From Schizochytrium sp. TIO01 (Eukaryota; Sar; Bigyra; Thraustochytrida; Thraustochytriidae): a stretch of 64,000 nucleotides of DNA. The position numbers and the translations under genes are program-made. A model generated the notes under the pieces. It was not told the DNA's origin, made no database searches, and saw only the letters and a list, made by a program, of their open reading frames with translations. The stretch is from assembly GCA_004764695.1 (NCBI GenBank), contig SMSO01000008.1, positions 216,001 to 280,000 of the forward strand, in the 5' to 3' direction. Shown piece after piece: positions 3,201-55,753 of the stretch. Every line of letters begins with the position of its first letter. Position 1 is the stretch's first letter.

Positions 3201-5063
3201 ATGGAGGGGCTTCTTGAGGTGCCTAAGAGCGGTCGCTGGCGTCCTGGGTACGCACGATACTTTGTAGTGGACTTTGAGCGCAAAGCTGTCTGCTCAGGCA
3301 AAGATGAGGCTCAGGCCAAAGGGGATGCCGCTAAAAAACTCCCGGGGTATAATTTCGCTGCCGTTGAGCTAACAGGGAGTGTCCCTGGTGAGTTTCATGT
3401 GCTCACGCGAAAGAGGACATATGTTTTTCGTGCAGCATCCGCACGTGAAGCCCGAAGATGGGTCCGCGCAGTGCAAACTCTAATGCAGGACCTTGCAGGT
3501 CTAAGTGACCACGTTCGTACCGCCTCTGGAGGAACTAAGTCACTCTCATCCGAACGGAATGGTATGCTCATTTTGGGGTCCATCTTTGCAACTATTTGTT
3601 TCACGCTAATTTATCTAACGGCCCTCATTTCACCGAGATCACCATCATTAATACGACCAACACCATCCTCGTCATCTTCTGCTCAAGAAGACAATCTCTC
3701 GAATGACTACGCAGCCTTAAATGACCTCCCTCTTAAACAAGATGGAGGAAACAGTAACAGTGGCGGGGGACTTTTACTTGTTCTAATTCTCCTCGGCCTT
3801 GGCTGCACGACTGCGCTCTTTAAAGATAAAATTTACGAATATTTTGATACCGAAATGCAGCGAATCCGATGCGCAATGGAAGACACATATAGGGAGACCC
3901 TTGAAAGCTGGCGAACTCCATATGATGAATTCATTCAGTCATGGTTTGGTGCATACGACGAGGTCAAATCTTCCGGGCGGCAGTACTTCAATACCTTCTG
4001 TGCATCACTTCCACACTTCCTTCTCGCTGAGAATAGTGAAAAAGAAGAAGACTCAGAACCCGCCAAGAGGCGTTCAAGGCGCTCACAGAGAAGCTTTGCG
4101 TCTAAAATTGATATTGGCCCACGTGCTCTCGGACCAGATCAACGACGGTCCTTCGAGCGAAGACTGATGGCACATCACAACTCCTCCGCTGCTATGAACT
4201 TAACAAGATCCTCTTCGGCTCCGGAAGGTCTTTCTGAGAATTCAGGTTCACGTCAATCTTTTAGAAGGGAACCTCGGCGACTCGTTTTCGACAACGAAAG
4301 AACAAATGCATTGCAGTCTATGCTCGCAAGCAGAAGCGCCACATCGTCGGCCTCTTCCTTCGCTTCTTCTAACTCTGAAACGCACTCAACACTTTCTCTT
4401 CAGGAGGATTTTGATGATCTTGAAAATGAAGACTCGCCTATCGAGAGCGAGGTGTCACCAGCGAAAGGTCGTTCTGCAAAGTTAAAGAAATCAAAGAGCT
4501 TTCGCTCTTGGTGGGGTAGAAAGCGCCAAGGAAGTCAAAGTAAACTGACAGCGGCTGCTCCAATTGTTACAGAGATTGATCCAGAGCCTGTACCTGGGCA
4601 CAATAAAAGGTCTCGGCAACCACCTCCCCTTCCGAAGCGAAAATCATCCGCCAAACGCTATTCACGTCGGCCATTCGAGACTTCCGAGTCAGCCTTATGT
4701 AGTGAAGCTGACGAGGAGACCAAAGACGACGACCTCACGCTCAATGAAGGCACCACTCCAGCTTCGCGCATGGAGAACGCCGGACCTGAGTACGCAAAAT
4801 ATGCCAAAATGTTACGAAATGGCGTCCCAGAGGGTGCCGTGCGAAATGCACTTGCGCGGGATGATGTAACAGAACCTTATGGAGTTTTTGAAGATGATGG
4901 TCTTTATTCTCACTCCAAAGCAACTAAGATGCAACAGCATATTAATCATGCAAAACAAAACAAATCGAATGCACCTCGCAGATCTCTTCGGCAAGAGCCG
5001 AGTATGATTGATGAATTGAGACGACGTCAACTAACTCTTGGCATTGTCCCGGTGGAAGAGTGA
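3201..5063 (+). CDS. PH-domain protein with two predicted membrane segments
   Basis: The product has 620 residues. Residues 1-97 look like a pleckstrin homology domain: a basic GRWRPGYARYF start, alternating strands, and a final helix EARRWVRAVQTLM with the conserved tryptophan at 87. PH domains bind phosphoinositides or proteins at membranes. Hydrophobic segments at about 121-144 and 190-207 look like two transmembrane helices, so the protein is probably membrane-anchored with a long C-terminal side. Residues 270-520 are Ser/Arg-rich and disordered, with a proline motif RQPPPLPKRK that could bind an SH3 domain. Near 529-556 a motif YAKMLRNGVPEGAVRNAL resembles the short motif of WASHC3/CCDC53 and related actin regulators. 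The start is the first ATG of the frame. There are no signs of introns. A role in membrane-cytoskeleton signalling is inference. Confidence 0.8.
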   Translation: MEGLLEVPKSGRWRPGYARYFVVDFERKAVCSGKDEAQAKGDAAKKLPGYNFAAVELTGSVPGEFHVLTRKRTYVFRAASAREARRWVRAVQTLMQDLAGLSDHVRTASGGTKSLSSERNGMLILGSIFATICFTLIYLTALISPRSPSLIRPTPSSSSSAQEDNLSNDYAALNDLPLKQDGGNSNSGGGLLLVLILLGLGCTTALFKDKIYEYFDTEMQRIRCAMEDTYRETLESWRTPYDEFIQSWFGAYDEVKSSGRQYFNTFCASLPHFLLAENSEKEEDSEPAKRRSRRSQRSFASKIDIGPRALGPDQRRSFERRLMAHHNSSAAMNLTRSSSAPEGLSENSGSRQSFRREPRRLVFDNERTNALQSMLASRSATSSASSFASSNSETHSTLSLQEDFDDLENEDSPIESEVSPAKGRSAKLKKSKSFRSWWGRKRQGSQSKLTAAAPIVTEIDPEPVPGHNKRSRQPPPLPKRKSSAKRYSRRPFETSESALCSEADEETKDDDLTLNEGTTPASRMENAGPEYAKYAKMLRNGVPEGAVRNALARDDVTEPYGVFEDDGLYSHSKATKMQQHINHAKQNKSNAPRRSLRQEPSMIDELRRRQLTLGIVPVEE

Positions 5064-21885: not shown

Positions 21886-23242
21886 TTATGCAGCCATATT
21901 ATCATCCTCGCAAGACTCGCCAAGCATAGCCTCCTTCTCACGCATGGTCTCTTCCATAATTTCACGCATCAGCTCGTCCTCAGCAGCCTTGCGCTCATCC
22001 TTAATACCATGTTCAAGTAGCCAGCGTTCAGCATCGAGAGCAGCCATCGCGCCTGTTCCTGCAGAAGTAATCGCCTGGCGATAGACTGCATCTGCGACGT
22101 CTCCAGCAGCAAAGACACCCTGGACAGAGGTGCGTGTAGATGGGCCCGGGACCACGAGGTAGCCTTGTGCGTCCATCTGAAGTTTTTCACGAAAGGGCCA
22201 AGTGTTCGGGGTATGACCGATGGCCACAAATGCACCACTGACAGGGAGCAAAATCTCTTCGTTAGTATCCACCTTACGGAGCTTTGCATGTGTGAGAAGT
22301 TCAATATCTTCCGTAGTATCAGCACCCTGAGCTGCGGCGTGCGGGTCGTTGCGAGCCTCATCCGCGTTCTCGGTGTGACCCTGGAATTCCTCCACCACAG
22401 CATTCCAGATCACTTCGATCTTGGGATGTTCGAGAACCCGCTGCGCTAAGATACGTGATGCCTTGCTAAAGGTATCTCTACGGTGTACGATGGTGACCTT
22501 GGAACACATGGTTGCAAGGTGCAAAGCCTCTTCCATCGCAGTGTCCCCGCCACCAACCACCATGACCTCCTGATCGCGGTACAGGTATCCGTCACAAGTG
22601 GCGCATGCAGAGACTCCGCCACCCTTGTATTTGTCCTCGGTCTCAATACCAAGCCATTTGGACGCTGCACCGGTTGCCACAATAATGGTGTGCGTAGATA
22701 TCACTGAAGAGTTTGTGTGCAGCTTATGTGGCACTCCCGTGGTGTCACTGAGCTCTACAGCGGAGACAATATCGTCACTGAAGACGGCACCGTAACGCGC
22801 AGCTTGCTTCTGCATTTCGTAGACTACAGCAGGGCCAGTAATGTCGATGGCTAATCCAGGGTAGTTCTCCACGAGCACGCCCTTTCCACAGAGCTGGCCA
22901 TCATTAGGCGGACCCACCACCACGGGCCGCAGACCAGCTCGAGCTGCGTAAACGGCAGCACTCAGGCCTGCAGGCCCAGCACCAATGATAACAATACGTT
23001 CAGAAAGACCATCTGCATCAGGGGAGTACATGGTGAATGAGGGGGCGTCCTCCTCGTCACCGTCCTGGGATGCAATGTCGTCGTCGTCACTTTCCTCCAT
23101 TTGCGCCTCCATCTCGGCCTTGCGCTTCTCAAGTTCCTCCTCGAGCGCCTCGAGACTTGCCAAGTGAAGGTTTGCCTGAGGCGGCTCGCTCTGGGTCTTA
23201 CGCGAAGAAGAAGATGATGACACAGGGGGGGGGGTCCTGCTA

Positions 23243-23274
<32 letters not shown>

Positions 23275-23970
23275 GCTGCTGCTACTGCTGCTACTCTTAG
23301 CACCATCTGACGAAGATGAGGACGACGAAGAGGACTTTGCCTCGGGGTCGTACCGCAGAACAGTCTCAGGCGCAACACCATATTTCTTCTTCAGAGCCTT
23401 GACGAGGCTGCGATGGCCCTTACCTCCTTCTTCGCCGCCTGCCTTCTTCAAGACCTTATCAATGTTATCCTGAGTTGCCTTTTCTGGAGCGTGCTCCTGA
23501 TAAAATTTTTCGAGAGATTCTCTAGTGACTTTGATGTTGGTCTCTCGAAAGTCCTTCGCCATGCGAGCAGCCCATGACTGGAGTTGCTGCAGATCGCCTC
23601 CGGAGAACTGGTGGCGCTTTTTGCCGTCCTGATAGAACTGAAATGTCGGCATGCTGCGGATCCTCTGGATGGAGCTGGTCTCGCGGTTGCCATTCACATC
23701 GACCTTCGCAAAGACTACCTTATCTGCGTACTGCTTGGCCAAGTTCTTGTAGTGTGGCGCAATCTGTCTGCAAGGGCCACATCCGTCGGAGTAGTAGTCG
23801 ATGATGACGCCGAGTCCCGTCACGTCGCGATGGTAATTTAAGAGCCGCGTGAACTCTTTCTGCGTGCGGAGGTTGCGCACGAGAGGGCGACCACTGACGC
23901 TGGCGAGAGCAATGCCTAAGACCACGAGAACCAGCACCAGGCTAGACTGCAGGCACCCTTGACGCACCAT
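21886..23970 (-). CDS. Fusion of thioredoxin (N-terminal) and NADPH thioredoxin reductase (C-terminal) with signal peptide
   Basis: From the ATG at 23970 the product has 694 residues. The frame extends 23 codons further upstream without an ATG. Residues 1-27 form a signal peptide or anchor (core LVLVLVVLGIALASVSG). A thioredoxin fold follows with the active site CGPC at 64-67 and the cis-proline stretch SMPTFQFY. A helical segment ends in LVKALKKKYG. A serine-rich linker occupies about 215-260 and an acidic stretch follows. The C-terminal part, about 325-670, is a low-molecular-weight thioredoxin reductase: the FAD-binding IVIIGAGPAGLSAAVYAARA, the redox pair in ACATCDG near 456, the NADPH-binding VVGGGDTAMEEA, and GVFAAGDVAD near 622. 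The polypeptide should pass electrons from NADPH through FAD and the CATC pair to its own thioredoxin. The plant/cyanobacterial NTRC has the opposite order. A secretory-pathway location is inferred. Confidence 0.9.
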
Positions 23971-34850: not shown

Positions 34851-34871
34851 ATGAGCGATGGCGGGCGATGA
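34851..34871 (+). promoter_or_regulatory. Upstream reading frame overlapping the archaemetzincin-like start
   Basis: An ATG at 34851 opens a six-codon frame that ends in TGA at 34869-34871. It overlaps the main start codon at 34858 in another frame. Scanning ribosomes would meet it first. It could lower translation of the main frame or act as a reinitiation control. Its context (ACGC before ATG, A after) is weaker than that of the main ATG (GCG before, G after). Confidence 0.6.
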
Positions 34872-36612
34872 CTTGGCCAAAGTGCTCGCCAAGCGTGCCA
34901 AGTTTCGTCGCGATGTTTGCGCTCGAATGATTCAACGAAAAATGAGGCCTTGGCTTGCTCGCATAATTCGACAAAGAGCTTTCATAAGCAAAGTATGTGA
35001 GCAAGGGGGAGTTTACGAGCAACTTCGACTACAGGCCATCATCGCGGCTTGGAGACGCTTTACAGATGAGGAGGCTGAACGATGGGCCAAAGGTGTCACA
35101 TTCAACGGGCATCGACCAGGGTACCTATGGCAAGATGGCAACCAGGAAATGAAAGAACGCAAATTTATTGTCTTCTTTGACCATCTCGCAATCGTTGATG
35201 CAAAGTCAGGAGAGACGGTTTCAAACATACAATTCAGCCAGATTCGACGCGTGACGAAAGGAGTAGAACAAAAGAAACATGATGTAACAGTGCAGCTTAA
35301 AACAGGACATAAGGAGATATACAAACTTCTCAACTCAATAGGATTTTTTGCGGCATTCCAGTTCAATCTAATGAAATGGCTGCACAGGGAAGCGAGGAAA
35401 AGCTCAAAGCGCAAGAGTATGCGCAACTTAGATATCTTCCAGGAGGACGCTAAGAACAAGGGGCCTGAGATCATCGATTTCAAACCTAAACCTGCTCCCG
35501 ATTTACCCTTGCCAGCAGAGCGTGCCGAAGCCAGTGGTCAAGATGTAACTGGGCTCACTCCCGCTCTTCGATTAGCCTGCCAGTCGGGTCTGGATAAAAG
35601 CGGCCTTTTCGGACCAGTGCAGCGTCCATGGAAGGACGACTGGATCGCCTTGCGTCAAGACCATACGAAGCGGCAGACCTACCAGGAATGGAAGGACATG
35701 GGTCCTCGAGTTCCATTTGGAAGCAACCAAAACTATATTTACTTGGTTCCTATTGGAGATCTTGAAGAGCATGACGGAGGCTGCGAAATTCGTTGCCTTG
35801 CAGACTTTACTCGAAGCTACTTTCATGGCGTTCGAGTAGAAACCCTACCAGCAATTCCTTTAAGAGGTTTGCATAGGGATCGCGGCATGAGGCTTCACAT
35901 CGAGCTAACTGGATTTGACTCTGAAGCTGCTTGCAAGGATACCAGCGTACCTGTTCAACTCAATGAAATGGAAAAGTATTTACGGCAACTCTTGCCTAAT
36001 AACGCATTTATGCTTGTCGGGGTGACCTTACATGAGGTGTGCGCAGGGCCAGGATACGTACGTGGAAGCCCGTATATGACACTGCCTGAAGTGCGCGAGC
36101 ATGCAAATCGTCGACGCCTGTGCGTACTCAGTTTGTCTAGACTTGATCCATGGTACAGGCGTAGCACAGCCAAAGACTTTTACACAATGGAAACACGCGA
36201 GACCCGCAAGGCACTGCTAGTACGCCGTGCCTGCCGGTGGCTTGGCCATCATATAATGTTGTTTTTCGATATGGATCATTGCGTTTACCACAGTTGCCTC
36301 ATGAACGGTTTTGTCAGTCTTGAAGAAATGCATTATGTACCTCTCCAAGTTTGCCCCATTTGTTTACGGAAGCTGCTCGATGCGATTGGGGTGAAAACGT
36401 CGTCACGCTGCATCGAGCGCTACAGCGCTATGCGCAGGTTTTGTCACGTGAACAACCGGGTATTTGCACGCGAAAAACGTTGGTATGATGTTAGAATTAA
36501 GTCACTTGAGAAACGACATCTGCAATACCTCACTGACAAGGAGCTCGAACGACTCTTTGGCGTGATGCTTCCAGAACAAGAAACTCTCTCGCTGCCGGCG
36601 GTGGCGACATAG
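34858..36612 (+). CDS. IQ + PH-like + archaemetzincin-like protein with a degenerate zinc site
   Basis: The product has 584 residues. An IQ motif lies at 25-35 (IQRKMRPWLAR), a calmodulin-type binding site. Residues about 88-177 form a PH-like domain (ERKFIVFFDHLAIVD, then a final helix with W174). From about 294 the sequence follows archaemetzincins (AMZ1/AMZ2): YIYLVPIGDL, NAFMLVGVTLHEV, and the C-terminal HCVYHSCLMNG, EEMHYVPLQVCPICLRKL and RCIERYSAMRRF. The family has a catalytic HExxHxxGxxH motif followed by four structural cysteines. Here the cysteines C475, C480, C499 and C502 and M482 are kept. The catalytic segment is HHIMLFFDMDHC (464-475): Glu became His, the second zinc His became Leu and the Gly became Asp. 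It is very likely not an active protease, but the frame is intact, so a structural or binding role is inferred. The start ATG has a strong context and is overlapped by a short upstream frame. Confidence 0.85.
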   Translation: MAGDDLAKVLAKRAKFRRDVCARMIQRKMRPWLARIIRQRAFISKVCEQGGVYEQLRLQAIIAAWRRFTDEEAERWAKGVTFNGHRPGYLWQDGNQEMKERKFIVFFDHLAIVDAKSGETVSNIQFSQIRRVTKGVEQKKHDVTVQLKTGHKEIYKLLNSIGFFAAFQFNLMKWLHREARKSSKRKSMRNLDIFQEDAKNKGPEIIDFKPKPAPDLPLPAERAEASGQDVTGLTPALRLACQSGLDKSGLFGPVQRPWKDDWIALRQDHTKRQTYQEWKDMGPRVPFGSNQNYIYLVPIGDLEEHDGGCEIRCLADFTRSYFHGVRVETLPAIPLRGLHRDRGMRLHIELTGFDSEAACKDTSVPVQLNEMEKYLRQLLPNNAFMLVGVTLHEVCAGPGYVRGSPYMTLPEVREHANRRRLCVLSLSRLDPWYRRSTAKDFYTMETRETRKALLVRRACRWLGHHIMLFFDMDHCVYHSCLMNGFVSLEEMHYVPLQVCPICLRKLLDAIGVKTSSRCIERYSAMRRFCHVNNRVFAREKRWYDVRIKSLEKRHLQYLTDKELERLFGVMLPEQETLSLPAVAT

Positions 36613-37361: not shown

Positions 37362-39470
37362 ATGCTCACAACGAGCGATGCTCGTGGGCTACGGCGAGAC
37401 GATTCCGGTAGCAGCGAGGAGGCATCTTCATTTTTGGCGGATATCGAGCGACGCGAGCGACATGGGGGCCAAATGCAAGCGATGGAAATGGATCTCGGGC
37501 GTCCGGCGAGTGCTACAGACCCATCTTCATCTCCAAGTTCTTCTTCGTCACTCAGAAATAGCAATTCAGCGACTGGGAAAGCTAATGATACGCACGAAAG
37601 GGTCTCTATTGGCAGAATACTAAAAGATGTAATAACAGCTCCTCTAAACGTAGCCAAGTACTACCGCCGGCTAACTGAGGCATTTGGCTGGAGGTTTGTG
37701 GCAATCGTTTCCATCGTATACGGCCTAAACCAGGGTATGGGTGAAGCCTTCTTCGAGTTTGGAGGCCAGTACCTTTTGTCCGATGAACCGCCAGATGGTT
37801 ACGGTCTAAATGCTAACCGCATGGAATCCATTTCGGGATTTGCAAATGTCCCATGGCAGATTAAGTCGGTCTATGGTATTCTTAGTGATAGTTTCCCTAT
37901 CGTGGGCTACCATCGTAGCCCATACGTCGTTATTGCAGGGATTTTTGGTGTGCTGAGCTGGGGCGCTTTATGGCTCGTGCCGCTCAGTCTTGGCATGGTA
38001 GCTACAATGCTTTTCCTTGGTAACCTCTCAGTAGCTTCACCAGACGTTATGATTGATGCTTCTGTGGCTGAGCGCTGTCGTACGCACCCAAACTTTGCCT
38101 CTGATTTACAGACCCTGTGCTGGGCCAGCTTTGGTCTTGGCAAAATCTTTGCCTCCTCTACCATGGGGGTTATTCTCGCAACCTTTGGATCAAGGTCTAT
38201 GTTTGGGCTTACGTCTCTCACAAGCATAGCAATGCTTCTGCCAGCCATTTTTAATTGGCTTACTGAGGAGCCTCGTTCAGCTGAGAGGCTTCTCAGCGAA
38301 GTCCGAATCCCATCGTCCTCGCCATCAACCGAGCCTTCCACAATGACTCGCAACGAAGGAATACGAGTTAGCGAACAAGAACAACGTCCAGAGAATAGCC
38401 TCTATCATCCGACATCACAAGTGTCGTATGCTTCAGGATACGCATCAGTCTCTGCTATTGAGGATATTGAGTTATCTTCCCAGAGCGATGATACAGGTAC
38501 TTCCAGGATATACGGGCAAGATACTAGCGATTACAGTGAGACTGCTATGGCCCCTCATGGTTGCGTCGGACGCTTGCGACACGCGTTTCGTGACCCTCTT
38601 TCTGGCCCGATCTATTACTTATCATTTATCGTCATGGGCATATCAATCTCCATGGGTTTTGTGGCTAAACAAAGTGAGGACTATTTAGTAGTTTTTGGTG
38701 CGGCAATTCTTACGACATTGGCCATTTCAATTGCTGTACTACGCCTCGAAGGTAAAGTAAGTCTCCGTCTTGCTAAAGCATCTTGTTATATTTTTCTAGC
38801 AAATGCCATTCAACCTACATCAGCATTGTTGTTTTTGTGGTCAAAGCGTGACGAGCGTTTCTGCGGTGATAATGAGAGCGCTTGCCCCGGTAAGTTTTGC
38901 CCACGTCCATGTTTCTCAGAGGAATTTATAGCTATGGTCGACGTAGTTGGGTATGTAGTCTTTGTTGTGGGTACATCAATGTACAACAAATACTTGAGTT
39001 TATGGCCCTATCGTCGCATATGGCGAGTAACCCAGATTGCGTTGACGTTTGTAAGCCTCTTAGACCTTGTGTTTGTATGCCGATGGAACTTAGCCATTGG
39101 AATTCCAGACAAAGCGTTCATTATGGGTGATGAAATCCTCTCTGACCTTATTGCGCGGTTGAACACGATGCCATTATTTGTCTTGGCTGCTGCAACCTGC
39201 CCACCAGGAGTAGAGGCAACACTGTTTGCGCTCAATATGGGCCTTTCCAATTTTGGCGGTACATTGGGCAAGTACCATGGACTAGGGTTAATGTGGGTTT
39301 TTGGTGGTGTGACAGGTCCAGAGTTTGCAAATTTAGACTACTTTGTCCTCGTCCGTAGTTTGATGCGACTTTTACCTATTCTTCTAATACCCATGCTGGT
39401 GCCCACTGGAACCCCTCAAACAGAAACCTTCGAGGAGCCAACCCGAGCCGAGGAGGGCGAGAAAAACTAG
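37362..39470 (+). CDS. BT1-family (folate/biopterin-type) membrane transporter
   Basis: From the ATG at 37362 the product has 702 residues; the open frame continues 22 codons upstream without ATG. Residues 1-95 are a polar N-terminal tail. The transporter follows with BT1 hallmarks: FEFGGQYLLSDEPP, VPWQIKSVYGILSDSFPIVG, then YHRSPYVVIAGIFGVLSWG. About 12 membrane segments are visible in two halves, with a Ser/Glu-rich loop of about 90 residues between them (near 310-400). BT1 proteins belong to the major facilitator superfamily and carry folates or pterins in trypanosomatids, plants and cyanobacteria. Stramenopiles and apicomplexans have many copies. The real substrate cannot be read from sequence. 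A Cys-rich outer loop (CGDNESACPGKFCPRPC) in the second half is unusual and may be disulphide-bonded. Location, plasma or organelle membrane, is unknown. Confidence 0.9.
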   Translation: MLTTSDARGLRRDDSGSSEEASSFLADIERRERHGGQMQAMEMDLGRPASATDPSSSPSSSSSLRNSNSATGKANDTHERVSIGRILKDVITAPLNVAKYYRRLTEAFGWRFVAIVSIVYGLNQGMGEAFFEFGGQYLLSDEPPDGYGLNANRMESISGFANVPWQIKSVYGILSDSFPIVGYHRSPYVVIAGIFGVLSWGALWLVPLSLGMVATMLFLGNLSVASPDVMIDASVAERCRTHPNFASDLQTLCWASFGLGKIFASSTMGVILATFGSRSMFGLTSLTSIAMLLPAIFNWLTEEPRSAERLLSEVRIPSSSPSTEPSTMTRNEGIRVSEQEQRPENSLYHPTSQVSYASGYASVSAIEDIELSSQSDDTGTSRIYGQDTSDYSETAMAPHGCVGRLRHAFRDPLSGPIYYLSFIVMGISISMGFVAKQSEDYLVVFGAAILTTLAISIAVLRLEGKVSLRLAKASCYIFLANAIQPTSALLFLWSKRDERFCGDNESACPGKFCPRPCFSEEFIAMVDVVGYVVFVVGTSMYNKYLSLWPYRRIWRVTQIALTFVSLLDLVFVCRWNLAIGIPDKAFIMGDEILSDLIARLNTMPLFVLAAATCPPGVEATLFALNMGLSNFGGTLGKYHGLGLMWVFGGVTGPEFANLDYFVLVRSLMRLLPILLIPMLVPTGTPQTETFEEPTRAEEGEKN

Positions 39471-51317: not shown

Positions 51318-51624
51318 ATTGGGTTGGGCGTTTACTAGCCTGTTCGATGCTTTTGTCTACTGTAGGTGTGACAGTCTGTAAGTGGTTTATAGAGAATAGG
51401 TGACTTGTAGGCGTGGCGGGCAAGTGAGTTATAGCGTCCGCAAGTAGGCGGTTTGGGGTGGCACTGTGCGGTAGTGCCTGCGTGGCAGCAGCAGTACCCA
51501 GTCCGAGCCAGGCCAGGCCGGGAGCGTGGACCTTGCGGACGTACGGACGACCGCTGGCTGCCCACTCTTTGTTCCGCGCGAGAGGACCTTGAGGACCTCG
51601 CGGACAACCCCACCCTTCACCACC

Positions 51625-53991
51625 ATGGACGCCCTGCACGACCCTGCCATCGCCACGGCTCTCGCCGTTGGAGTAAGTGGCATCGCCCTCTTTGTCGGAT
51701 CCCGTCTGCTTGGCGGCTCAGCCAACGCCAACTCCGCCGACACTGCCCTTCTCAAGGCTGACGAGAACCTCCAGAACAACGCCAACTCTGGCTCTGGGTC
51801 CTCCAAGGCCTCCAAGAAGAAGAAGAACAAGAAGAAGAACAAGAAGACCCCCGTCGCCGCTGACACCGAGGTCAAGAGCGAGGACACCCCGAAGACCAAC
51901 AACGTCGAGACTAAGGCACCTGCACCCAAGGCACCTGAGCCCAAGAAGGTTGTCGAGGAGCCCAAGCCCAAGAAGGTTGTTGAGCAGCCCAAGAAGGCGC
52001 CTACGCCGCCCCCCCAGGTGCCCGAGGAGCCCGAGGATGACCTCAGTGGCTTCGAGGAGGTTGCTAGCAAGTCCAAGAAGAAGAAGAACAAGAAGAAGAA
52101 CAAGAAGGCCGCCACCCAGGCCGAACAGCCGGAGCCTAAGGCACCTGAGCCCAAGAAGGCCGCTGAGCAGCCCAAGAAGGCCGCCGAGCAGCCCAAGAAG
52201 GCTGAAGAGAAGCCCGTCGAAGACAACTCCGCTGCCGCTGAGGCCGAGGCTGCTGCCGCTGCTGCTGCCGCCGCCGCTGTAGCTGAGGCCGAAGCAGCTG
52301 AGACTGGCTGGAAGACTGTCCCCGCGCGCCGCAACAAGAAGAAGGCTGCCGCAGTTCCTGTCGTCACCGCTGAAGAGGTCCCCGTTGCTCCCGAAGATGC
52401 CGCCCCCAACAAGATTGCTGTCCAGCTCGACATCGGAGAGTACGCACCCAAGCTCATTGGACCCGGTGGCCAGACTATCCAATCTCTCCAGGAATCCTCC
52501 GGTGCCAAGGTTGACCTCGACAGGGCTACCAAGACCTGCACGATCAGCGGTACCCAAGAACAGGTCGCCGCCGCTCAGGAGTTTGTCATGACTTTGCTCG
52601 CAAACCAGAAGAAGGACTTCTTGGACCTCGGTGCCAAACGTGGTCTCGTCTTCGCCAAGCTTCGTGAGATCCAGGATGCCAGTGGCGCCCGTCTTGACCT
52701 CGAACGTGATTCCAACCTTCTCGAGCTCAGCGGCGAGGTCGCCCAGGTCGTCAAGGCTCGCGAGATGGTCAGTGCCATCCTCGACTCTACCTCCGTCAAC
52801 ACCATCGATCTTGCCCTCCGCGATGTTCCCTGCGTCATTGGTAAGGCCGGCGCTAATGTCAAGGCTATCCAGGCCGACTCTGGAGCCAGCCTCGATATCG
52901 ACTCAGACATCGGCATCGTCAGTGTTACTGGTACACCCCAGCAGGTCGCTCGTGCTACCGAGCTCGTGCGCCTCTTTGTTGAGCATCGTGGACCCCCCCC
53001 TGAGGCCCTCAAGAAGCTTCAGATGCCCGGCCAGGATGCCCGCCTCGTGATCGGAGCCGGTGGTGCCAACGTCCAGCGTCTTGAGAAGGAGACTGGAGCT
53101 CGCATCAAGATTGACCTTGATGGAGACGATGGAGCAGCATCAGTCACCGTTTCTGGCAGCAGTGCCGAGGTCGAGGCTGGTGTGGCTGCGGTGAACAAGC
53201 TCATTGCAGACCACAGCAATGAGGCTTCCGTGCCGGTGGCGAACTCCAGCATCTTCAAGGCCATTCTTGGCTCTGGAGGTGCTACAATCAACTCGATCAG
53301 AGACAAGTCCCGTGCTCGCGTTGATCTTTCCGACGCTGGTGTTTCCATCAAGGGTACCCCTGACCAGGTCGCCAAGGCACGCAAGATGGTTGAGGAAATT
53401 ATCCAGGCCGAGGTGGGACCCCCCAAGGTGCCTGAAGGACAGACCCTCTTTGAGACTGACCTCGGAGCTGCCACCGGAAGAGTCATTGGCGCTGGAGGAT
53501 CCAACATTGCAAGGCTCCAGGATGACTGCAACGTCACCATCAACATCAAGAGGGGCACTTACTGCTACGTCGTGGGTCCTCAGGAGGGCGTTGACAAGGC
53601 CAAGGCTGAGATCATGGACACCCTCAAGCGTCACGAAGAGGCCGTCGCCAAGGCCAAGGCCCGCGAGGAGGAGGCTGCTCGACTTGCCGCTGAGTCTAAG
53701 GCCAAGGAGGAGGAGGAGCAACAGGCTAGAGAAGCCGCTGCTGCCGAGGCCGGAGAGGATATCGAGGAAGCACCTTCTGCTGCTGAGATTGCAGCGAAGG
53801 CTCCTCAGCCTGTGGCCCCTGCTGCCCAGGTTGCAAAGCCTACTGCTGCTCAGGCTGCTGCTGCCCCTACTCAGCCTGTACCAGCTACTGATAACCAGGC
53901 ATGGCAACCCCCTCCCAGCACCTGGGGCGCCAATGATGCTTGGGGCTCAACGAGCAACGCTAACGGCTCCCAGAACGGCTGGGGACTCTAA
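51625..53991 (+). CDS. Membrane-anchored multi-KH RNA-binding protein (vigilin-like) with WG-rich tail
   Basis: The start ATG at 51625 has a strong CACCATGG context; the frame runs 33 codons further up without ATG. The product has 788 residues. A hydrophobic segment at about 8-30 (ATALAVGVSGIALFVGSRLL) looks like an N-terminal membrane anchor. Lys/Pro/Ala-rich low complexity follows with KKKKNKKKNKK repeats. Six KH-type units occupy about 260-670. Five have the GxxG loop (GPGG, GKAG, GAGG, GSGG, GAGG); the second has lost it. A coiled Glu/Ala-rich segment follows, and the tail contains three WG dipeptides (STWGANDAWGS, then GWGL). Vigilin/Scp160 proteins bind mRNA and polysomes at the ER. A built-in anchor would fix such a protein to the ER, which is inference. 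Codons are strongly biased to C/G endings, which suggests high expression. Confidence 0.88.
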   Translation: MDALHDPAIATALAVGVSGIALFVGSRLLGGSANANSADTALLKADENLQNNANSGSGSSKASKKKKNKKKNKKTPVAADTEVKSEDTPKTNNVETKAPAPKAPEPKKVVEEPKPKKVVEQPKKAPTPPPQVPEEPEDDLSGFEEVASKSKKKKNKKKNKKAATQAEQPEPKAPEPKKAAEQPKKAAEQPKKAEEKPVEDNSAAAEAEAAAAAAAAAAVAEAEAAETGWKTVPARRNKKKAAAVPVVTAEEVPVAPEDAAPNKIAVQLDIGEYAPKLIGPGGQTIQSLQESSGAKVDLDRATKTCTISGTQEQVAAAQEFVMTLLANQKKDFLDLGAKRGLVFAKLREIQDASGARLDLERDSNLLELSGEVAQVVKAREMVSAILDSTSVNTIDLALRDVPCVIGKAGANVKAIQADSGASLDIDSDIGIVSVTGTPQQVARATELVRLFVEHRGPPPEALKKLQMPGQDARLVIGAGGANVQRLEKETGARIKIDLDGDDGAASVTVSGSSAEVEAGVAAVNKLIADHSNEASVPVANSSIFKAILGSGGATINSIRDKSRARVDLSDAGVSIKGTPDQVAKARKMVEEIIQAEVGPPKVPEGQTLFETDLGAATGRVIGAGGSNIARLQDDCNVTINIKRGTYCYVVGPQEGVDKAKAEIMDTLKRHEEAVAKAKAREEEAARLAAESKAKEEEEQQAREAAAAEAGEDIEEAPSAAEIAAKAPQPVAPAAQVAKPTAAQAAAAPTQPVPATDNQAWQPPPSTWGANDAWGSTSNANGSQNGWGL

Positions 53992-55753
53992 GTCGGTTTG
54001 GTCCAGAGTTTTGCTTGTTAGTTAGTTAAATTGGGTCATGAATATGAGTTGGCGCTGCTGCTTACTGCTCCTGCTGTTGCACTGTCGCTGGGTCCCATTT
54101 AAAGGCATCTAGTGGGAGTTTGTACGTATCGCAGTCGAGCGCAGTGCTTGCAAGCTGCTCTACTTCGCATCCAACTATTTAGCAAGCTGCAACTTTGAAA
54201 ATTGCATTCTGCATTAGTTTTCTCCATCACAGATTACGCGCATGCAAGTTGTCAAGTCTGGTCAGATGCTTTGTTTTGTACCTCTTAAATTGCATGTGGT
54301 GTAGGGATGATGTTACGCTACTACTGTTGCTCGTTTCTTCTGAGGCTTTCCGCTATATTTGTTTCTTCTTCTCTTCTTTACAATTGTTGCGGTGCGGCTC
54401 CCAGAGCGTGCAAGTAGAATATACTATTCATTCATCTATCCACTTCATTACATGCATCAAGCAAGAGTGTTCATGCTGGACAAACTTGGCACTTGCTGCA
54501 AATATTTTATCTGACTGGATCTATTCAATCGGTCACAGCTTGAAGCCCTGTCTCTATTTACTCGAGAAGGGATCCGTTCATGTATCAGTTGTGTTGGGGC
54601 AGAGGAGGCAGGATGATCTCGCAATGCACATACCCTCATGGAATAGAGGGAGGAAGGGAGGAACTGGCTAAGATCCACCTTTTGTCTTGTCTAGTGCACG
54701 CTCTCTTTACTTATCATGGTTTAATTGACTGACTTTCCTCGCTTCTATACTCACCCACGCTTGCTCGGATTCCCTTAACTCTTGTGCCGGCTAGTGGTTC
54801 ACCTGTCGCTTATTTGCTCCTGCAACCTTCTCCCCTATTCTCAACTTCTTACATCTCTACTCCTCGAATCCCAACGCGCGGATCGAACAAACTTCAAAAA
54901 ACAAAAACAAAAACGTACCTAAAAAAATGATACACAGACTTTTCTTATATCTTTCCAAAAAAAAAACTTCTTTGCTACTGACTGCAGCTTTTCTTTTGCT
55001 CCTTACTAGAGTTACATTCGTAACGGTGATGCTTATACCTGTCCCAACCAATTTTGAGATGATTAGTAGTGCACCAGCTATGGTGACTTGATCTGAAACG
55101 CTGTTCTTCTCTTTTTTTGCCAATACCTTGGTCTGACTTTTCGCCTACATGCTTGCATAAGAGGTAATAATTCCCACCTAGATACTCTTATAAGTGACAT
55201 TCAATCACCACAAACCTTGCTGAATACTTCCCGACGTGGCCTTCCTTGTCGCAATGTCTCATCTATTGCCATCCACTGACCTGGGAGCTCTTTCTTTATC
55301 CTTGTATCAAATTTATGCTTTTGACATTTTAAAATCAGGCAAGTCCCATGCATTCATCCATGTCAAATTTACGCTTTTCTTTAATAGTCTGGTTGACATT
55401 TGCTGCATCAGGATAAAAGCCTACAGCTATTTTAAATGGAATTCGTGCTTTGATCTTTCCGGTTCTTCCTTCAGAACTAGTATCATGCTTGAGATAGTGC
55501 TGATAATACTCTCTTACTTCTCTCGCCTATTTGATGACAAATACCACGAGTCCGAAAGATTAGTCAGTTCTCGATCATTGTCTCCAACAAACTCTTACAG
55601 AATCTAACTGCACATGGTACTGGATACAAATCCAAAGAAGTCGGTTCAGGAATAAATCAATACACTTATGTTTTAAATCCATCACCATTTGCATTTCAGG
55701 GTGTCTACTATAGTATTTCTTCTATATTCCAAGGACCTACTCTACACACACAC

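Follow-up and report, generated by a model that had tools for sequence, protein, structure and literature searches.

Members of the archaemetzincin family (M54) that lack a working catalytic site are already known. CarG of Myxococcus xanthus is described as an inactive archaemetzincin, with Gln in place of the catalytic Glu, that forms part of a transcriptional regulator, and vertebrate AMZ1 is described as having its third His replaced and as being of doubtful activity (PMC3427221). The same account gives activity as absent for MkAmzA and AfAmzA in the assays used, reports that a Cys to Ala variant of the MkAmzA Cys4 site precipitated within 12 hours, and states that CarG variants carrying single Cys to Ser substitutions gave no complementation. 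Since Cys variants of MkAmzA precipitate and those of CarG fail, the Cys4 site is taken here to be structural. For AMZ-tk, which cleaves casein, minimal activity is reported for a mutant of the Glu and ~20% for each of the three His mutants (PMC4681839).

The protein compared here with these systems, P0001, is encoded in a 64,000-nucleotide stretch of the Schizochytrium sp. TIO01 genome (the window). Like CarG, as that protein is described (PMC3427221), P0001 is an archaemetzincin that has lost the catalytic Glu and has the Cys4 site needed in CarG; unlike CarG, for which a Glu to Gln change is reported, P0001 is changed at both the Glu and the second His and carries ~200 extra N-terminal residues. 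It is a eukaryotic archaemetzincin like vertebrate AMZ1 and AMZ2, with which it was compared by description alone, and unlike AMZ1, described as losing the third His only (PMC3427221), it lacks the Glu and the second His. Among the papers listed by a loosely matched literature search, none dealt with a dead member of the family from a protist, oomycetes and thraustochytrids included, which is a weak negative, and no paper paired 'archaemetzincin' with 'pseudoprotease'. As far as the literature was searched, what is new is a eukaryotic genome in which the only two detectable archaemetzincins are both dead, one of them with a long extra N-terminal half.

The P0001 gene is a single ATG-started open frame (Table 1), uninterrupted over its 584 codons and lying where the preliminary description of this DNA had placed it. 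One frame of the reverse strand was translated and was found to contain many stops. Codon usage bias was too weak to single out the frame clearly (0.038 for P0001 vs −0.065 to 0.031 for the other frames).

Table 1. Features of the P0001 gene, with positions numbered from the first letter of the window.
Feature	Position	Strand	Basis
P0001 open frame, 584 aa	34858..36612	+	Chance of 584 sense codons at window base composition ~2e-14
Presumed IQ-like stretch IQRKMRPWLAR, residues 25–35	34930..34962	+	Sequence; predicted long helix in low-confidence model
Possible PH-like domain, residues 86–180	35113..35397	+	Inferred by eye and from low-confidence model
Long-form archaemetzincin region, residues 202–551	35461..36510	+	blastp to P0005; hhalign
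Lost catalytic site HHIMLFFDMDH, residues 464–474, replacing HExxHxxxxxH	36247..36279	+	Sequence; alignments
Kept Cys4 site and Met-turn (C475, C480, M482, C499, C502)	36280..36363	+	Sequence; alignments
C-terminal extension IERY...F...W...R, residues 519–551	36412..36510	+	Common to paralogue P0002 and long-form bacterial members

The next long frame 3′ of the archaemetzincin gene encodes a BT1-family transporter (window 37362–39470, + strand). Elsewhere in the window, a thioredoxin domain is fused through a long Ser run to a pyridine nucleotide-disulphide oxidoreductase domain (21886–23970, − strand), and the frame at 3201–5063 (+ strand) gave a match to CCDC53 (WASH complex) just over the cut-off, a weak PH match under the cut-off and, by eye, a membrane-type stretch. 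A KH-domain gene with five KH stretches (51625–53991) is overlapped by long open frames at 51429–52457 (− strand) and 53219–54025 (+ strand), which are most likely shadow frames of this G+C-rich gene.

The assignment of P0001 to the archaemetzincins, made in the preliminary description, was supported by homology over the metzincin domain together with the retained Cys/Met set. A blastp comparison with P0005 (identical with L165), a bacterial long-form member with an intact catalytic motif, gave E 3e-30 with 27% identity over 352 columns; L165 matched P0001 residues 202–551 and a second long-form protein, L164, matched residues 232–550. In hhalign, P0001 aligned with 28 prokaryotic archaemetzincins over residues 292–512, spanning the domain, with E 1.9e-5 and a probability of 78%, and the same 28 sequences against P0001 plus its paralogue P0002 gave E 4.5e-7. 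The curated models scored P0001 below their cut-offs (NCBIfam archmetzin, E 6.3e-5, 23 bits, cut-off 145; Pfam M54, E 0.014, 15.8 bits, cut-off 24.4), and these scores would suit a protein that is no archaemetzincin and matches the family by chance through its Cys content. The blastp match over 352 columns and the domain-wide profile match speak against a chance resemblance, which is regarded as refuted. On these alignments P0001 can be placed firmly as a descendant of the long form of archaemetzincin. Searches of the PDB by phmmer with P0001 or its motif stretch returned only chance matches, and no close relatives were found of P0001 in viral and prokaryote contigs, of P0002 or the P0001/P0002 pair in viral contigs, or of P0001 in phages.

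The long form was met in a survey of one bacterial phylum, in which 76 of 198 genomes had an M54 match at E <=0.001, 75 of them over the cut-off, and which included L164 and L165. A three-row long-form alignment was then searched against 395 genomes and matched 19 at E <=1e-20. Near full-length long-form frames were obtained from seven of these (L176–L182, of which L176 is L164 and L177 is L165); a TGA was reported within the match of L180, and L181 contains unknown residues. The bacterial long-form members are collinear with P0001 from about residue 202 to 551 and share with it DW..Q, P.(D/N)AF, the Cys4 site, CP(V/I)CL.KL and the C-terminal extension. Unlike P0001, all seven keep the catalytic H, E, H and H, and the first 200 residues of P0001 were not seen in them. 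Human AMZ2 has the CLM.GS..L of the long form together with its C-terminal extension. In a tree of 21 rows, P0001 and P0002 were placed with the long-form members (94/91, no star); each sits on a long branch and these branches meet, so that the two may or may not be sisters.

At the catalytic site P0001 reads HHIMLFFDMDH (residues 464–474), in which the first and third His stay, the Glu is replaced by His and the second His by Leu. The motif and the numbering of C475, C480, M482, C499 and C502 agree with the preliminary description. Because HExxHxxGxxH is lacking, P0001 is classed as a homologue and not as an active peptidase of the family. The spacing of the Cys/Met set, C475-x4-C480-x-M482-x16-C499-xx-C502, follows the family pattern; the published form is CX4CXMX17CXXC, and the aligned relatives also have 16 residues in the longest interval. 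As read from the alignments, the catalytic Glu and the second zinc His are clearly gone from P0001 and the structural Cys4/Met set is kept.

Each of the replacements at the site had been attributed to changes of more than one base. At the Glu, GAR to CAT takes at least two changes, and at the second His the Leu codon TTG matches neither CAT nor CAC at any base, as claimed. The claim fails at the Gly, where one change turns GGT into GAT and the close relatives are mostly without Gly: six of the seven close long-form relatives have Ser at this position. The Gly was checked further in a non-random sample of 56 bacterial stretches, 30 taken from the best matches and 26 chosen mostly among weaker ones. 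The Cys pattern was present in 51, all of which keep HExxH.....H; the Gly is absent from 16 of the 51, and three of those 16 have Asp. Since a single base change suffices and relatives do without the Gly, its replacement by Asp is no evidence of decay.

The other five stretches of the sample were of several kinds. Two (L144, L145) were judged by eye to be phosphotransferase-type frames and not M54, and one (L146) shows HExxH as part of a shifted motif. In another, a long-form gene of genome G066 (L152, also L170, L183 and L195), the catalytic site HEVGHMFGLKHC is intact, one Cys of the Cys4 site is replaced and a stop lies within the gene, a pattern that is the reverse of the one found in P0001. 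The last (L147) has lost the catalytic motif, and its longer reading (L166:469–1599, − strand, genome G093) joins TPR-like repeats, which scored at best 26.7 bits and so fell slightly short of the cut-off, to an M54 domain that passed its own (Pfam E 1.4e-10). Like P0001, this bacterial fusion has lost the catalytic site and kept the four Cys; unlike P0001, it retains nothing of the HExxH..H motif and no Met, and the tree groups it with the short form (94/91), on a long branch of unsure placement. It is probably an independent dead archaemetzincin. Among viruses, 21 archaemetzincin matches in IMG/VR contigs (L084–L104) all had an intact-type motif (21/21), under search patterns that favour intact motifs, and in several of them the start of the protein looks hydrophobic by eye, as though phages had copies anchored in the membrane.

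The genome (64.06 Mb, 37 contigs) was searched with P0001, and one further match was obtained (E 0.015), within a 397-codon open frame on the minus strand of contig C4 (1832508–1833701), termed P0002. P0002 matched P0001 with E 5e-8 and 24% identity, and P0005 with E 3e-13. At its site, ALCSIWALFAPC, the three His and the Glu are all lost, and the Cys/Met set follows. Pfam and NCBIfam gave no match to P0002 and hhalign against 28 short-form members gave E 0.11, so that its membership rests on the pairwise matches. The same contig carries a PfaA-type PUFA synthase gene, over the family cut-off, at 608161–617209, and a frame matching a PfaA-type PUFA synthase on the opposite strand at 591651–594563. 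In a protist with a genome of this size and long genes free of interruptions, such a synthase points to a thraustochytrid or a near relative.

An active paralogue, which the preliminary description had set against its own reading, was looked for and was not found in six-frame genome searches by family, protein and homologue, from which an intron-split or unassembled gene could escape. The search with P0005 recovered P0001 (E 4.1e-21), P0002 (6.1e-10) and a weak third match (L198, 0.064), and the pattern CPICLRKL matched twice, in the P0001 and P0002 genes. NCBIfam listed P0001 alone. The sole listing for Pfam M54 at E 10 was a reprolysin, with P0001 absent; since P0001 itself was missed, the Pfam genome search is blind to copies this diverged. 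L198 was rejected as a third archaemetzincin, its match stopping short of the motif and the part of the frame examined holding one HExxH (HEVLH). L107 was likewise rejected as an active archaemetzincin: it is a reprolysin whose motif reads HELGHLFGAHH and which lacks the Cys4 set. This reprolysin-like metzincin (L107:409–2382, + strand, contig C31) has a PAN-type part under the cut-off and, by eye, a signal-like N terminus.

These searches bear on the idea that P0001 regulates an active archaemetzincin, by dimerising with it or sharing its substrate. Regulation of this sort is described as a common role of pseudo-enzymes (PMC11266112), but no active archaemetzincin turned up in these genome searches, and the sole other metzincin met by the archaemetzincin searches was a reprolysin without the Cys4 set. 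A regulatory role of this kind is considered very unlikely.

The extent of conservation was then compared for the two paralogues. Of 99 columns invariant in the seven long-form relatives, P0001 keeps 52 and P0002 keeps 41; at the four catalytic columns (H, E, H, H) the counts are two and none, and all four Cys and the Met are kept in both proteins. Against 32 conserved columns of 25 short-form members, P0001 keeps 12 and P0002 keeps eight. Given 52 of 99 columns, retention of four Cys out of four has a chance of 0.53^4, or ~0.08, for one protein. Cys retention in P0001 by itself would not be very unlikely, and the case leans on P0001 and P0002 together. A Fisher test on hand-picked columns (P 1e-4) was discarded: it included Gly columns not conserved in the relatives, and the two proteins share ancestry.

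It could be that the P0001 gene is in decay, with its function lost recently and no stop acquired so far. The catalytic site is lost and divergence has been fast, with an end branch of 2.49 changes per column, both as decay would have it. Set against this are the 584 codons that remain open, the retention of the Cys4/Met set, CPICLRKL and the C-terminal extension, the same pattern in the second diverged open frame, and the several base changes at the catalytic site, from which it follows that the loss was long ago. P0001 and P0002 are 24% identical and both open; a long-neutral sequence is therefore unlikely. Decay is accordingly judged improbable. The view taken in the preliminary description, of a maintained pseudo-protease and not a fresh pseudogene, is supported by the long intact frame, the kept Cys/Met set and the second diverged open frame of the same kind.

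Alternatively, P0001 may still be a metal enzyme, in which some of H464, H465, D471, D473 and H474 form a new metal site for a hydrolase or another activity. The first and third His are indeed kept, and three more His or Asp side chains lie inside the motif. Note, however, that the general-base position is without Glu, that one ligand is replaced by Leu, that the WNFVFG stretch conserved in the seven long-form relatives is mostly lost, and that the P0002 motif has neither His nor Asp. A new metal-dependent activity is thought unlikely, slightly more so than decay.

For the core of P0001, a model was built on its alignment with P0002 and 25 prokaryotic archaemetzincins (mean pLDDT 75.6, pTM 0.77). 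Five PDB matches to this model were obtained at E <0.001, all of them archaemetzincins (2x7m, 4axq, 3zvs twice and 3lmc). The sequence thus appears compatible with the metzincin fold, in a match that is not independent, the input alignment having held archaemetzincins. The full-length protein, modelled from the single sequence, had a mean pLDDT of 33, with a helix at residues 3–46; the IQRKMRPWLAR stretch of the N-terminal part we take to be an IQ-like motif. A possible PH-like region shows strands and then a helix, by eye and in that low-confidence model. IQ and PH profiles in Pfam did not match the N-terminal part, its PDB matches were short and due to chance, and no second copy was found in the genome, where the best other match had E 0.32.

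Our preferred reading, which we hold to be probable, is that P0001 has been maintained as an archaemetzincin without catalysis and serves as a binding module braced by zinc at the Cys4 site. The Cys4 site would still bind one zinc and hold the C-terminal subdomain, and the catalytic zinc would be absent or bound in another way. By analogy to CarG, the fold may now hold on to a protein or peptide partner that it does not cleave, and the extra ~200 N-terminal residues, with the IQ-like helix and the possible PH-like domain, may place the protein in the cell. P0002 would be a second genomic copy further along the same course.

The function of archaemetzincins is poorly known. A wider and more tentative proposal, less likely than the reading of P0001 itself, is that this lineage turned its archaemetzincins from proteases into non-catalytic zinc-braced binding modules: both members are dead and long diverged, and one has an N-terminal half with IQ/PH-like features that might serve in targeting. 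On this view the family could do without the catalytic zinc site, and what it truly conserves at its core would be the Cys4 site. With catalytic residues lost and the Cys4 site retained in all members detected, the lineage amounts to a natural experiment on which part of the fold is needed without cutting, and a non-proteolytic function of archaemetzincins can be tested directly in it.
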